Origin: Oricola indica
Lineage (GTDB): Bacteria; Pseudomonadota; Alphaproteobacteria; Rhizobiales; Rhizobiaceae
Length of the DNA: 64,000 nt
Reading direction: 5' to 3'
Assembly (NCBI RefSeq): GCF_019966595.1
Contig: NZ_JAINFJ010000004.1
Location: 310,001-374,000, forward strand
Below the pieces are notes generated by a model. It was given only the letters and a program-made list of their open reading frames with translations. It was not told the origin of the DNA and ran no database searches. Positions 21,512 through 33,287 of the stretch are shown piece by piece. Made by a program: the position numbers and the translations under genes. The first letter of the stretch is position 1. Each line of letters starts with the position of its first letter.

Positions 21512-22396
21512 TCAGACGCCCTGAAGCCGATGGCAAAGCGAATCGAGCTGTTCCAAAGTCTTGTAGCGAACCTTCAGTTCCCCGCCCTGACCGCTATGGG
21601 CGATTTCGACACGTAAGCCGAGTTGATCGGTCAACAATTTCTCCAGGGCCAGCGTATCGGCGTCTTTCTGTTTGGCGGCAGCGCCGACGGACCGGCTGGT
21701 CTTTTGCGTACCGTCCGCGTCTTGCGCAAGTTGTTCTGCCTGTCGCACCGAAAGACCGCCTTCGACTATGCGACGCGCAAGGGATTCCGGATCGGACGCG
21801 GTGATCAATGCCCGCGCATGGCCGGCCGACAATGCACCGATACGAACCTGCTCGCGGACGGGATCCGGCAGCTTGAGAAGGCGCAGCGTGTTGGCGACAT
21901 GGCTTCGGCTCTTGCCGATGACATCACCAAGGTCGGCCTGGGTATAGGCATATTCGTCAAGAAGCCGCTGATATCCGCCCGCTTCCTCGATCGGATTGAG
22001 ATCGGCACGCTGGACGTTCTCGATGATCGCCAGTTCGAGCGCGATCTTGTCGTCCACGTCACGGATAATGACGGGGATATCGACAAGCCCGGCCCGCTGG
22101 GCAGCACGCCAGCGCCGCTCGCCCGCGATAATCTCGAACATGTCGGCATGGCCGGCCTGCGGACGCACGACGACAGGCTGGATAATGCCATGCTCGCGGA
22201 TCGAAGCCGCGAGATCGGCCAGGTCTTCCTCGGCGAATTCGCGGCGCGGATTGTTCGGATTGCGGACGACAAACTCGATCGGCAGCCGGCGATCGGCGGG
22301 TTGCGGCTGCTTCGCCTCTTCCGCGGGCTGGTCCATTTCACCGATCAGTGCCGCGAGGCCGCGTCCAAGTCTTTTGCGGGAAGCGTCGTCTGCCAT
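21512..22396 (-). CDS. parB: chromosome partitioning protein ParB
   Basis: ParB binds parS and spreads along DNA as a CTP-dependent clamp. The 294-residue protein opens with KRLGRGLAALIGE and has the CTP-binding Box II motif GERRWRAAQRAG. It also has the helix-turn-helix region (YTQADLGDVIGKSRSHVANTLRLL) and a C-terminal dimerisation domain ending VRYKTLEQLDSLCHRL. It follows parA by 32 bp. Two perfect parS sites lie 1.4 and 3.4 kb away. Confidence 0.97.
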   Translation of the reverse strand: MADDASRKRLGRGLAALIGEMDQPAEEAKQPQPADRRLPIEFVVRNPNNPRREFAEEDLADLAASIREHGIIQPVVVRPQAGHADMFEIIAGERRWRAAQRAGLVDIPVIIRDVDDKIALELAIIENVQRADLNPIEEAGGYQRLLDEYAYTQADLGDVIGKSRSHVANTLRLLKLPDPVREQVRIGALSAGHARALITASDPESLARRIVEGGLSVRQAEQLAQDADGTQKTSRSVGAAAKQKDADTLALEKLLTDQLGLRVEIAHSGQGGELKVRYKTLEQLDSLCHRLQGV

Positions 22397-22428: not shown

Positions 22429-23217
22429 TCAGGCCGCCGTCAGCCGGCGTTCACGCCGGATCACTTCCGACGCCAGTTGCAGATAGGCCTGGCTGCCGGC
22501 GCAACCCAGATCGTAAAGGATCGCCGGTTTTCCATGCGATGGTGCCTCCGAGACCCGGACATTGCGCGGGATGACCGTCTCGTAGACCTTGTCTCCAAGA
22601 TGCGACCGCACATCCTCGACGACCTGCAAGGCAAGGTTGTTGCGCTTGTCGAACATGGTGAGCACGATACCCTGGATTTCGAGCTTCGGATTAATCGACC
22701 GTTTGACCTGGTCGACGGTCTTGAGAAGCTGGCTCAGGCCTTCGAGCGCGAAGAACTCCGTTTGCAGCGGCACGAGGATAGAATCGGCGGCCGCCATTGC
22801 ATTGAGCGTCAGGAGATTGAGCGACGGAGGGCAGTCCACCAGCACATAGTTGAACCGGGTCGAGACGCGATCGAGCGCGGACCGCAGCCTGAATACGCGA
22901 TCCTGCTTGCCCGAAATCTCCATCTCGACGCCCAGTAGGTCCATTGTCGATGGAACAATGGAGAGATTGGGCACAGCCGTTGGCACAGCCGCGTCAAGCG
23001 CGTCAGCCTCACCGAGAAGGACGTCATAGGAGGAAACTTCGCGATCTTCGCGGTCGATACCGAGCCCGGTGGACGCGTTGCCCTGCGGATCGAGATCGAC
23101 AATGAGAACGCGCTCGCCGATAGCGGCAAGCGCGGTCGCCAGATTGATCGCCGTGGTCGTCTTCCCCACGCCGCCCTTCTGATTCGCTATGGTTATCACG
23201 CGACAACGATCCGACAT
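22429..23217 (-). CDS. parA: chromosome partitioning ATPase ParA
   Basis: ParA is the deviant Walker A ATPase that moves ParB/parS complexes towards the pole. KGGVGKTTT is at residues 14-22, the Walker A' motif is in VDLDPQGNASTG, and the Walker B-like segment is VDCPPSLNLLT. The length of 262 residues is typical of chromosomal ParA. It lies in the operon mnmG-rsmG-parA-parB (26 bp after rsmG). Confidence 0.97.
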   Translation of the reverse strand: MSDRCRVITIANQKGGVGKTTTAINLATALAAIGERVLIVDLDPQGNASTGLGIDREDREVSSYDVLLGEADALDAAVPTAVPNLSIVPSTMDLLGVEMEISGKQDRVFRLRSALDRVSTRFNYVLVDCPPSLNLLTLNAMAAADSILVPLQTEFFALEGLSQLLKTVDQVKRSINPKLEIQGIVLTMFDKRNNLALQVVEDVRSHLGDKVYETVIPRNVRVSEAPSHGKPAILYDLGCAGSQAYLQLASEVIRRERRLTAA

Positions 23218-23243: not shown

Positions 23244-23882
23244 TCAGGCCGGTTTCGGTTGCAGATTCGAGATTTCGAGAATGACGGAATCCGCGTCGAT
23301 CCGGCTCTTATGTATTACCAGATCGAAAACGTGTTTGGCACGGCTTTCTTCGATCTCGCCGGCATATCCACGGCCTTTGTGAAACAGAGCGCGCGTACCG
23401 GACGAGAGCCAGGCCGAGGTCATATCGAGAAGCGCCGGCAGCGCAGCCAACGCCCGCGCCGTTACGATATCGGGCCTTTTCATCGCCGGGATTGCTGCCT
23501 CGATACGGGCAGGATGGATGATCGCCGACGGTGCACATTGTGCCTTGACCGCCTGTAGAAACGCCGTTTTCTTCCGGTTGCTTTCGATCAACTCAACCCG
23601 CGCATCCGGTTGATCCTGCAGAAGTATCGCGATCACCATGCCCGGAAATCCGCCGCCCGAACCGAGATCCGCCCAGTGTTGCGCCTCAGGCGCGAGATCG
23701 AAGAGTTGAGCGCTGTCTGCGATATGGCGCCGCCAGAAATCTTTCTGCGTGGACGGTGCGGTCAGATTGATCCTCGGCGACCACTTCTCATAAAGCGCCG
23801 CGTAATCACGCAAGCGCGCATGTGTTTCACGTGAAACACCGCCCAGGAAATCGGCATCGTCGAAGGCAGCGTTTCCGACCAT
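23244..23882 (-). CDS. rsmG: 16S rRNA (guanine-N7) methyltransferase RsmG
   Basis: RsmG (GidB) methylates G527 of 16S rRNA using S-adenosylmethionine. The 212-residue protein has the SAM-binding DLGSGGGFPGMV and the catalytic-site RALAALPALLD segment. The start is ATG 23882, 2 bp after the mnmG stop; a TTG at 23888 is also in frame. A perfect parS site is embedded in its first 20 codons (23823-23838), coding for GVSRET. Confidence 0.96.
   Translation of the reverse strand: MVGNAAFDDADFLGGVSRETHARLRDYAALYEKWSPRINLTAPSTQKDFWRRHIADSAQLFDLAPEAQHWADLGSGGGFPGMVIAILLQDQPDARVELIESNRKKTAFLQAVKAQCAPSAIIHPARIEAAIPAMKRPDIVTARALAALPALLDMTSAWLSSGTRALFHKGRGYAGEIEESRAKHVFDLVIHKSRIDADSVILEISNLQPKPA
23823..23838. 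other. parS centromere site 1 (perfect palindrome)
   Basis: TGTTTCACGTGAAACA is identical to the universal bacterial parS consensus. It lies within the 5' coding part of rsmG, 1.4 kb from parB and about 8.6 kb from the proposed oriC. ParB nucleates here. Confidence 0.96.
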
Positions 23883-25824: not shown

Positions 25825-25840
25825 TGTTTCACGTGAAACA
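25825..25840. other. parS centromere site 2 (perfect palindrome)
   Basis: TGTTTCACGTGAAACA is a second exact copy, in the 130-bp gap between mnmE and mnmG, about 2.0 kb from site 1 and 6.6 kb from the proposed oriC. Confidence 0.96.
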
Positions 25841-30668: not shown

Positions 30669-31205
30669 TCAGGCGAAGGGTTTGACGATAACGAGCACGA
30701 CGATGGCGATCATCAGCAGCGTCGGGGCTTCGTTCATCATGCGCCAGTAGCGCGGTTTCCGATCGTTGCGATCCTCGGCGAAGAGCCGCACCGCACGCGA
30801 GAAGACGCCGTGCACGGCCGACAATGCGAGAACGCAGGCCAGTTTGGCATGGAACCACCCATCCATCAGAAAGCCACCGGACCAAGCCAGCCACAATCCC
30901 ACGGCCCAGGCGATGACCATCGCCGGATTCATGATCACCCGTAACAGCCGGCCTTCCATAACCTTGAAGGTTTCGCTCTGCTGCGAGCCCGGTTTTGTAT
31001 CCGCGTGATAGACGAAAAGCCGGGGCAAATAGAGCATGCCGGCCATCCAGGCGATGATCGCGATGACATGGAGTGCCTTGATCCAGAGATAGAGCCCGTC
31101 CGGATCCAGCCAGAAGATCAGTGCCGCGAGCAGGCCGAAAACAACCAGCGCGATGACCGCGCGTTTCGCCGCTTTGCGGCCGCTCTGCGCGGAAATCTCG
31201 CTCAT
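30669..31205 (-). CDS. hemJ: protoporphyrinogen IX oxidase HemJ
   Basis: This 178-residue membrane protein of the HemJ/UPF0093 family oxidises protoporphyrinogen IX, the penultimate step of haem synthesis, in most alphaproteobacteria. It has four hydrophobic helices. The conserved motifs [30 protein letters not shown] (key His and Arg), MNPAM, WFHAKL and [14 protein letters not shown] are all present. The ATG overlaps the hemE stop (ATGA), so hemE and hemJ are coupled. Confidence 0.95.
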
Positions 31206-32230
31206 GCGTTGCCCCGTACGCGATCGACCAGATAGCCAACATCATCCGGGTCCGCTTGCGGCGTCACCCCATGACCGAGATTGAAAATCAACGGTCCATT
31301 GCCAAGTGCATCGAGAATACGGTCCACACCCTCACGGATCGCGTCCCGGCCCGCCACAAGCCGCAGCGGATCAAGATTGCCCTGAATCGGACCTTCTTTC
31401 TGAAGCTCCGCCGCAAACGAGAAAGGCACGGTCCAGTCCAGACCCAGCGCATCAACACCGGTTTTTTCCCGATAGCCCCGATAAAGGCTTCCGGCGCCCT
31501 TCGGAAATCCGATGATCTTCGCGTCCGGCCTTACCGCACGCACCTTCCCGACAATCCGCTTCATCGGCTGGACGCAGAAAGCATCGAAACAATCCTCGTC
31601 GAGGACGCCGGCCCAGCTATCGAAAACCTGGACGGCATCCGCGCCATTCTCGAATTGCTGCAAAAGATAGTCCGCAGACATATCCGCAAGAAGGTCGAGC
31701 AATCGCATCATCGAAGCCCGGTCGCGATAACCGAAGAGACGCGCCGGCGCCTGGTCCGGTGTCCCGTGCCCCGCGATCATGTAGGTAGCGACGGTCCAGG
31801 GCGCACCACAGAACCCCAGAAGCGTCGTTTCCTCCGGCAATTCCTGCCGCAAGCGCTTCACCGTTTCATAAATCGGCGCCAGATGATCATGCATGCCCGA
31901 TGGATCGAGTTTCGCGATACCCTCCGCATCGATCGGATCCATCTGCGGTCCTTCGCCCTGCACGAAACGAACATTGCGTTTCAACGCATCGGGGAGAACC
32001 AGAATGTCCGAAAACAGGATCGATGCGTCAAAGGCATAACGCCGTATCGGCTGCAGGGTCACTTCCACGGCCAGATCCGGCGTGTAACAGAGATCCAGGA
32101 AGCCTTTCGCGGTCGCTCTCGTTTCCCTGTACTCCGGCAGATAACGACCGGCTTGTCGCATGATCCAAACAGGCGGAGGACTGAGCGTCTCTCCGTTCAG
32201 GACCTTCATGATCTTCCGCTCGACAGCCAT
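31202..32230 (-). CDS. hemE: uroporphyrinogen decarboxylase
   Basis: HemE decarboxylates uroporphyrinogen III to coproporphyrinogen III. The 342-residue protein has the signature [17 protein letters not shown] near its N-terminus and [13 protein letters not shown], and it ends with [17 protein letters not shown] 32230 is preferred; the frame is open to ATG 32263, which has no ribosome binding site and would add 11 residues. In Caulobacter and many other alphaproteobacteria the chromosomal origin lies directly upstream of hemE, as it appears to do here. Confidence 0.96.
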
Positions 32231-32263
32231 TATCCCCGTTTCCTCGCTTACTTTCTTTTCCAT

Positions 32264-32693
32264 AAAATATGTCAGCGAAGCTGATTGATGATTCTATGAG
32301 TCTGTGAATAGCAGGTATCGCCACTTATGCAGAAGTCGGGATCGACCGCCGCGACAATTCGGCCGCGGGAAACAAGGCCATATCTGCCTGTGAATCAATG
32401 TGGATAAATTTCCAATGTAAATTCAAATAGTTAGGTTGTATTGTCCGAAGCTGGCTGTGGATAGTTTCTGCAATTCGTGGCAAGGACGTATCATCCACAC
32501 AATTCCCCACAGTGGACAGAATGCCGTCTGACGGTTGTGAATTGTGCATGAGCATCACTTTCGTTTCGAGCGGGACGGTCCGGTCATGTCGGAGCGCGAA
32601 TTGTCCACAGTCTCTCCCGTGTGAGGTCGCGGCGGACCAACTTGCAAAAACCGGTTCAAGCGTCTAACCGCCTGCCCAACAGAAAGAGATGAG
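32264..32693. other. proposed chromosomal replication origin (oriC) in hemE-maf gap
   Basis: This stretch (32231-32693 in all) carries no plausible gene. It holds a cluster of DnaA-box-like 9-mers. One is a perfect TGTGGATAA (32399-32407). Three have one mismatch: TGTGGATAG 32456-32464, TCATCCACA 32491-32499 and TTGTCCACA 32601-32609. Three have two mismatches: 32303-32311, 32389-32397 and 32503-32511. An AT-rich segment (about 32400-32442) next to the perfect box is a candidate unwinding element. The position beside hemE, the two parS sites 6.6 and 8.6 kb away, and the flip of gene direction here support oriC. I found no paired TTAA-type CtrA site. Confidence 0.85.
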
Positions 32694-33287
32694 ATGTCCA
32701 TCGTTCTAGCGTCCACCAGCCCGTTTCGTGCCGCGATCCTGATGAATGCCGGCATCGGGTTCAGGGCGGAGGGGTCGAACATCGATGAGCGCGCGGTCGA
32801 GGCTCCGCTGCTGGAGGCCGATGCGACGCCCGAAGATGTCGCTGCCATTCTCGCGGAAGCCAAGGCACTGGATGTTTCCGAGCGCAATGCCGGCGCGCTT
32901 GTCCTCGGTGGCGATCAGACCCTGTCGCTGGAAGGTGAGCTGTTTCACAAACCGGCGGACATGGAAGAAGCACGTCGCAACCTCCTGCGCTTTTCCGGCA
33001 AGACCCATCAATTGTGGAGCGCGCTCGCGCTTGCGCGCGACGGTGAAACGATTTGGCGGCATGTATCGGTCGCACATATGACGATGCGCCCGTTCGCGCC
33101 GGACTTTATCGGACGCTACCTCGCATCCGTCGGCGACAGCGCCCTGTCCAGCGTCGGCTGCTACCAGTATGAGGGCGAGGGCATCCAGCTGTTCGAGCGG
33201 ATCGAGGGCGACTACTTCACGATCATCGGTCTGCCGCTTCTTCCGCTTCTCGCAAAACTGCGCGAGTTGGGGGAAATCGATGGCTAA
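32694..33287 (+). CDS. maf: Maf-family nucleotide pyrophosphatase
   Basis: Maf proteins hydrolyse non-canonical nucleoside triphosphates and can affect septation. The 197-residue protein has the N-terminal [42 protein letters not shown] and the conserved [14 protein letters not shown] end. It is the first rightward gene after the proposed oriC, and aroE overlaps its last codons. Confidence 0.93.

Follow-up and report, generated by a model that had tools for sequence, protein, structure and literature searches.

The window analyzed here, a stretch of 64,000 bases, corresponds to bases 310001-374000 of contig C37 (422,528 bases) in the draft genome (5.09 Mb, 42 contigs) of a Rhizobium-family alphaproteobacterium. 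It carries hemE and a maf-like gene, both verified by Pfam and divergently oriented around the intergenic region in which an initial annotation had placed the chromosome origin, beside hemE.

31205..32230, minus strand: hemE, uroporphyrinogen decarboxylase (Pfam PF01208, URO-D, 364.6 bits)
32231..32693, no strand: hemE-maf intergenic region, almost certainly the chromosome replication origin (skew minimum, box cluster, synteny)
32694..33287, plus strand: maf-like gene (Pfam PF02545, 150.6 bits)

The start of hemE is probably at 32230 and not at 32263, since homologues begin there, so that the intergenic region would span 463 bases (32231-32693).

Evidence for a chromosome origin between hemE and maf

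Synteny was assessed with 80 named loci, the best 80 of at least 593 from a HemE scan, and with more loci obtained through a Maf search in 60 relatives. In 107 of 110 loci we observe hemE and maf divergently oriented with less than 3 kb between them, and in 24 of 29 additional ones the two occur together; the remainder, without hemE or maf in the stretch examined, were set aside (L064, L089 and L105; L214, L221, L229, L237 and L238). The near set used below comprises 113 loci, 79 of them named and 34 from same-family genomes, same-family status being established for the 34. A gene separates hemE from maf in 93 of these 113 loci (PF03618, COG1806, in L001, the one tested), and in the genus of the window the gap measures 463 to 500 bases, without the PF03618 gene. 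PF03618 (COG1806/ppsR), whose gene flanks the Caulobacter origin, gave zero matches in the whole genome that contains the window.

The cumulative skew (G minus C), proposed as a check in the initial annotation, has its contig-wide minimum at window position 32261, with the whole 422,528-base contig covered. The curve descends with small reversals to -5409 at this position, rises to -5028 about 46 kb further on and stands at -5149 at the contig end. For G004, a relative from the same genus assembled as one contig (3,998,539 bases), skew was sampled at 50-kb intervals in 80 segments of 10 kb each. The curve is lowest in the segment with hemE-maf and highest at 1.305 Mb, 2.0 Mb or half a chromosome away; skew is positive in 37 of the 40 segments to one side and negative in 33 of the 40 to the other. 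The G004 minimum is shallow (-0.022 at hemE-maf versus -0.016 at 3.105 Mb), and the nearly flat course of the curve from about 2.65 to 3.3 Mb counts against the origin call.

The intergenic region holds the following DnaA boxes.

32303..32311, minus strand: weak DnaA box CTATTCACA, two mismatches, directly adjoining the GANTC of the element described below
32325..32333, plus strand: DnaA-box-like 9-mer, two mismatches
32389..32397, minus strand: DnaA-box-like 9-mer TGATTCACA, two mismatches, in tandem with the perfect box and largely kept in the genus alignment
32399..32407, minus strand: perfect DnaA box TTATCCACA
32456..32464, minus strand: DnaA box CTATCCACA, one mismatch
32491..32499, plus strand: DnaA box TCATCCACA, one mismatch
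32503..32511, plus strand: DnaA-box-like 9-mer TTCCCCACA, two mismatches
32543..32551, minus strand: DnaA-box-like 9-mer TCATGCACA, two mismatches
32601..32609, plus strand: DnaA box TTGTCCACA, one mismatch

The one perfect box and the three boxes with one mismatch agree with the earlier count, and the boxes with two mismatches number five rather than three in the 307 bases 32303-32609 (32303, 32325, 32389, 32503 and 32543). Single boxes are not rare, with 7 boxes of at most one mismatch seen in the window versus 4.55 expected. A cluster of at least three such boxes per 310 or 463 bases is found only here on the 422,528-base contig (maximum elsewhere, two), and the weighted box score of the origin interval is 16, with 6 for the next best 430-base window. 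On the other 41 contigs, where the perfect box was the sole query, it occurs at 11 places, no two of them close together.

The skew minimum, the box cluster on its single contig and the synteny, along with the parS pair listed below and a dnaA gene located elsewhere, bear out the earlier placing, and we conclude that the hemE-maf intergenic region is, with very little doubt, the DnaA-dependent replication origin of the chromosome. We regard it as very improbable that the locus is no origin and the boxes have gathered by chance between two divergent genes, as the commonness of single near-match boxes and the shallow G004 minimum might suggest, given that the skew minimum, the synteny and the contig-unique cluster all agree. 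As an origin the region is ordinary, and the call is routine annotation. The dnaA gene is on another contig (C2), as a 548-aa frame with a DnaA C-terminal domain. A second match to this domain lies in a 178-aa open frame (G000:C33:440627-440830), possibly a short DnaA-like protein.

The AT-rich DNA that the initial annotation had paired with the perfect box is real, and 32403-32442 falls within the least stable 0.024% of the 40-base windows of the contig.

32403..32442, no strand: least stable 40 bases of the origin, a rival candidate unwinding region

Its equivalent is the least stable stretch in all six species of the genus, with a near-tie with the hemE side in L085. When the polarity from box to unwinding site is taken as in B. 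subtilis and E. coli, the stretch lies on the wrong side of the perfect box for DnaA-directed unwinding and on the right side of box 32456. The second least stable stretch of the origin is 32247-32286, and in 90 of the 107 other near-set loci the stability minimum begins no more than 60 bases from hemE.

With respect to partitioning, the initial annotation had put two parS sites and parAB within 9 kb of the origin.

21512..22396, minus strand: parB (Pfam PF02195, PF17762, PF23552)
22429..23217, minus strand: parA-type ATPase (Pfam PF13614)
23823..23838, no strand: parS, perfect 16-mer
25825..25840, no strand: parS, perfect 16-mer

The two parS sites are indeed 6.4 to 8.4 kb away, and no other 16-mer on the contig comes within two mismatches of the motif; parAB is slightly farther off, at 9 to 11 kb. 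In related bacteria, ParB/parS moves the new origin copy.

The earlier observation that a CtrA-type TTAA pair is missing also stands, as TTAA-N7-TTAA with at most one mismatch does not occur in the hemE-maf interval. Caulobacter-style blocking by CtrA in G1 is unlikely at this origin, since no CtrA site is present. The absence of a CtrA site from the Sinorhizobium meliloti origin is already published in the section cited from PMC4433202, and missing CtrA control is thus known for the group. Cori of Caulobacter crescentus (features from the portion of PMC1914354 cited here) is similar in its place beside hemE, its DnaA box cluster and its AT-rich DNA, whereas the present origin has no CtrA sites and has maf, not COG1806 (DUF299), as its other neighbor. 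The hemE-linked origin of the S. meliloti/Brucella type shares the hemE side, the box cluster and the hemE-side element, and in S. meliloti also the absence of a CtrA site; here, in contrast, the interval has 463 bases and the PF03618 (COG1806) gene is absent.

A conserved element on the hemE side

The initial annotation, right about the origin, overlooked an element of about 36 bases on the hemE side, located about 55 bases upstream of hemE.

32286..32321, plus strand: conserved hemE-side origin element, proposed start of unwinding (profile match, near-set conservation)
32290..32294, no strand: GANTC site (GATTC) in the element, intact in 39 of 90 distinct elements
32298..32302, no strand: GANTC site (GAGTC) in the element, intact in 88 of 90 distinct elements, middle base G or C
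32392..32396, no strand: GANTC site (GAATC)

We observe the element in 112 of the 113 near-set loci (at most 6 mismatches in 20; the exception is L218), with its start 35 to 100 bases from hemE in 109 of the 112, and the best of the control sequences (one shuffle each of 131 loci) had seven mismatches. The 90 distinct element sequences were collected from 114 loci (six mismatches at most), all but two of them in the near set. In the six-species alignment of the genus, the block 32286-32319 is kept nearly letter for letter, above most DnaA boxes. A 39-position profile, built from 30 element sequences so that some genome matches arise partly by construction, finds the element in 36 of 37 family genomes with one strong copy each (E 2.6e-9 to 0.02), with second matches in six family genomes, all at E >0.2. 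Among 24 order-level genomes outside the family, four have weak matches alone (E 0.05-1). In the genome of the window the match (G000:C37:342286-342321) has an E value of 1e-7, and the sole other match has one of 0.43.

Several genomes depart from the common arrangement. A perfect DnaA box adjoins the element in the relative G010. In G027 and G031, hemE and the element stay together, with maf 482 and 88 kb away, and up to 700 bases from hemE G027 has no box of one mismatch or fewer, which misfits an origin reading of the element. The reduced 1.1-Mb genome G011, of the same family (L218/L316), has kept hemE 525 bases from maf, yet the element is missing there, as are boxes of one mismatch or fewer up to 700 bases from hemE, and its origin may have moved. 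A record titled Bacillus subtilis strain SK6B4 (L077) shows a Rhizobium-type hemE-origin-maf locus with the element and a HemE 67% identical; this record is probably mislabelled or contaminated.

The element itself did not come up among the papers listed from the open PMC literature. An IHF site was rejected as its identity, as the consensus fits some Brucella-like sequences alone (by eye). A GcrA/CcrM promoter was likewise set aside as its main reading, as no genome has a second strong copy, and was retained as an alternative for hemE only.

Triplets and box pairs across the class

The comparison beyond the near set covers 86 loci, of which 68 are class level and 18 order level, the former being drawn from 109 non-own class-level genomes with hemE (L263 was omitted for its short flank). 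In many of these outside loci the hemE side consists of AT-rich DNA followed by T[AGT]G triplets and then by TGTGGATAA-like and GGGGATTA-like boxes. Runs of at least three T[AGT]G triplets occur on this strand in 34 of the 86 loci and on the other strand in none, with 2.9 in shuffles; in the near set such runs are not above chance (2 of 113 versus 1.1 in shuffles). A G at every third base for at least six steps is found in 24 of the 86 outside loci versus 1 in shuffles. In 26 of 33 cases the run is succeeded, within 30 bases, by a TGTGGATAA box of three mismatches or fewer (15.8 expected; 5 in the opposite orientation). Counted over runs anywhere in the first 220 bases, the base preceding G in the 45 loci with G runs of at least five is T 85 times, G 81, A 69 and C 33. 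The triplet strand resembles the complement of the C. difficile trio sequence quoted in the part of PMC7561715 cited, and the A-rich strand was dropped as the trio strand in view of more loci and of this same sequence.

Training on 64 loci from outside the near set yielded a 20-base box-pair profile. Of 112 near-set loci scanned on the plus strand, 74 have their top match precisely on the element, among them the six species of the genus; 20 column-shuffled profiles, also on the plus strand, gave 0 or 1 loci each. With both strands scanned, the best match is at the element in 58 of 112. The best plus-strand match within the window's origin is at 32301-32320, where box 32303 aligns with the first box of the class-wide pair. 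At the element there is a box pair resembling that of the triplet-bearing loci, with a place on the minus strand of the window, at about 32491-32510, scoring slightly higher (11.6 versus 10.5). Located towards maf within the origin, this minus-strand place resembles the class-wide box pair in mirror image.

The layout resembles the basal unwinding system (BUS), a DnaA box with DnaA-trios known from Bacillus subtilis, Helicobacter pylori and others, in its box pair adjoining AT-rich DNA and in the one-strand triplets of other alphaproteobacteria, with the polarity of B. subtilis. A box with at most two mismatches beside AT-rich DNA, as in BUS, is provided in the window by box 32303 and the stretch 32247-32286, likewise with that polarity. 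Differences are that outside the near set the triplet middle base is often T or G, and that the near set and the window carry a fixed, GANTC-bearing sequence instead of a repeat. The strict trio rule given in the passages of PMC8287927 cited here (at least three NAN trios no more than 16 bases away from a box) finds no site on either strand of the window and finds 12 of 60 class-level box pairs. According to the same passages, the search demands a middle adenine and trios without a middle adenine may exist. Strand separation in B. subtilis falls when the trio middle is G or T, C being tolerated (PMC10721633, in the part cited), which speaks against a functional T or G there and against the common module proposed next.

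These patterns could be accounted for by an unwinding module common to alphaproteobacteria on the hemE side, made up of AT-rich DNA with GANTC, TNG triplets whose middle base is relaxed and a tandem box pair, in which the triplets would have been swapped in the Rhizobium family for a fixed, single-copy GANTC sequence read by DnaA or a partner. We put this forward tentatively, as a proposal somewhat more apt to fail than to hold. If this is so, the Rhizobium-family element would exemplify the deviant kind of trio considered possible by the authors on BUS.

Candidate sites of unwinding

In the mechanism that we would propose from the sequence, DnaA gathers on the box cluster 32389-32609, and the DnaA oligomer, from the weak box 32303, would reach the element at 32286-32321 and open the AT-rich DNA beside hemE. 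The element would then correspond, in diverged form, to the DnaA-trio track of BUS, its repeats replaced by the fixed GANTC-carrying sequence, and ParB/parS, 6 to 11 kb away, would subsequently move the new origin copy. That unwinding begins at the hemE-side element is a proposition for which we see roughly equal chances either way. Both the lack of strict trios in the window and the position of the least stable DNA of the genus (32403-32442) speak against it, as do the chance-level T[AGT]G runs of the near set, the higher-scoring minus-strand place of the window and the missing boxes in G027. The element would offer a precise, 36-base target for a possible opening site of rhizobial origins.

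The element lies beside hemE wherever checked, and a hemE promoter could account for it for this reason. It could be a promoter or leader of hemE, perhaps read by methylation-dependent GcrA, with unwinding taking place at 32403-32442 instead, a possibility that we take seriously and yet hold to be rather doubtful. The short distance upstream of hemE and the persistence of the element beside hemE in the two genomes with a distant maf (G027 and G031) are consistent with a promoter, as are the GcrA and the CcrM-type RAMA-domain protein encoded in the genome, the near-invariant GANTC (88 of 90, G or C in the middle) and the report, in the part of PMC8959179 cited, that hemE transcription matters for replication in Caulobacter. 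The AT-rich stretch, least stable in each of the six species of the genus (a near-tie in one) and on the correct side of box 32456, would serve as the unwinding site in that case. A general GcrA promoter type is, however, at odds with the single strong copy per genome, no genome having a second one, and by eye there is no clear -10 hexamer. Moreover, the class-wide tandem box-pair profile, trained elsewhere, lands on the element, and the least stable DNA of most other near-set loci (90 of 107) is next to hemE.

Methylation of the GANTC in the element might also time initiation, in the manner of Dam and SeqA in E. coli, in whose oriC the 13-mers contain GATC. The two origins would be alike in having methylation sites within a putative unwinding region, and unlike in that the site here is GANTC, not GATC, and in that published ccrM work lends a SeqA-like role no support. 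GANTC precedes the class-wide box pair in 33 of 62 loci versus 10.2 in shuffles, and the 60 bases after the pair are unremarkable (16 of 62 versus 11.2 expected). For Caulobacter, the sections of PMC2217572 cited here model, and cite earlier work for, a need for a fully methylated origin in re-initiation, and those of PMC3973325 note GANTC sites in the origin and, from earlier work, extra chromosomes on CcrM excess. Yet the same sections of PMC3973325 report a normal DNA-content profile without CcrM and find CcrM not required for initiation control, and in the part of PMC11514494 cited Agrobacterium ori1 is not significantly changed by CcrM depletion or excess; we therefore consider timing by methylation unlikely. 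The conserved GANTC is all the more a puzzle, because the published CcrM work, as far as these excerpts go, has CcrM dispensable for initiation control in Caulobacter and without significant effect on ori1 in Agrobacterium.

With regard to the proposed opening at the hemE-side element, the class-wide triplets make a ready test set for the trios without a middle adenine mentioned in the cited passages of PMC8287927. The tables of that BUS paper may already contain alphaproteobacterial predictions.
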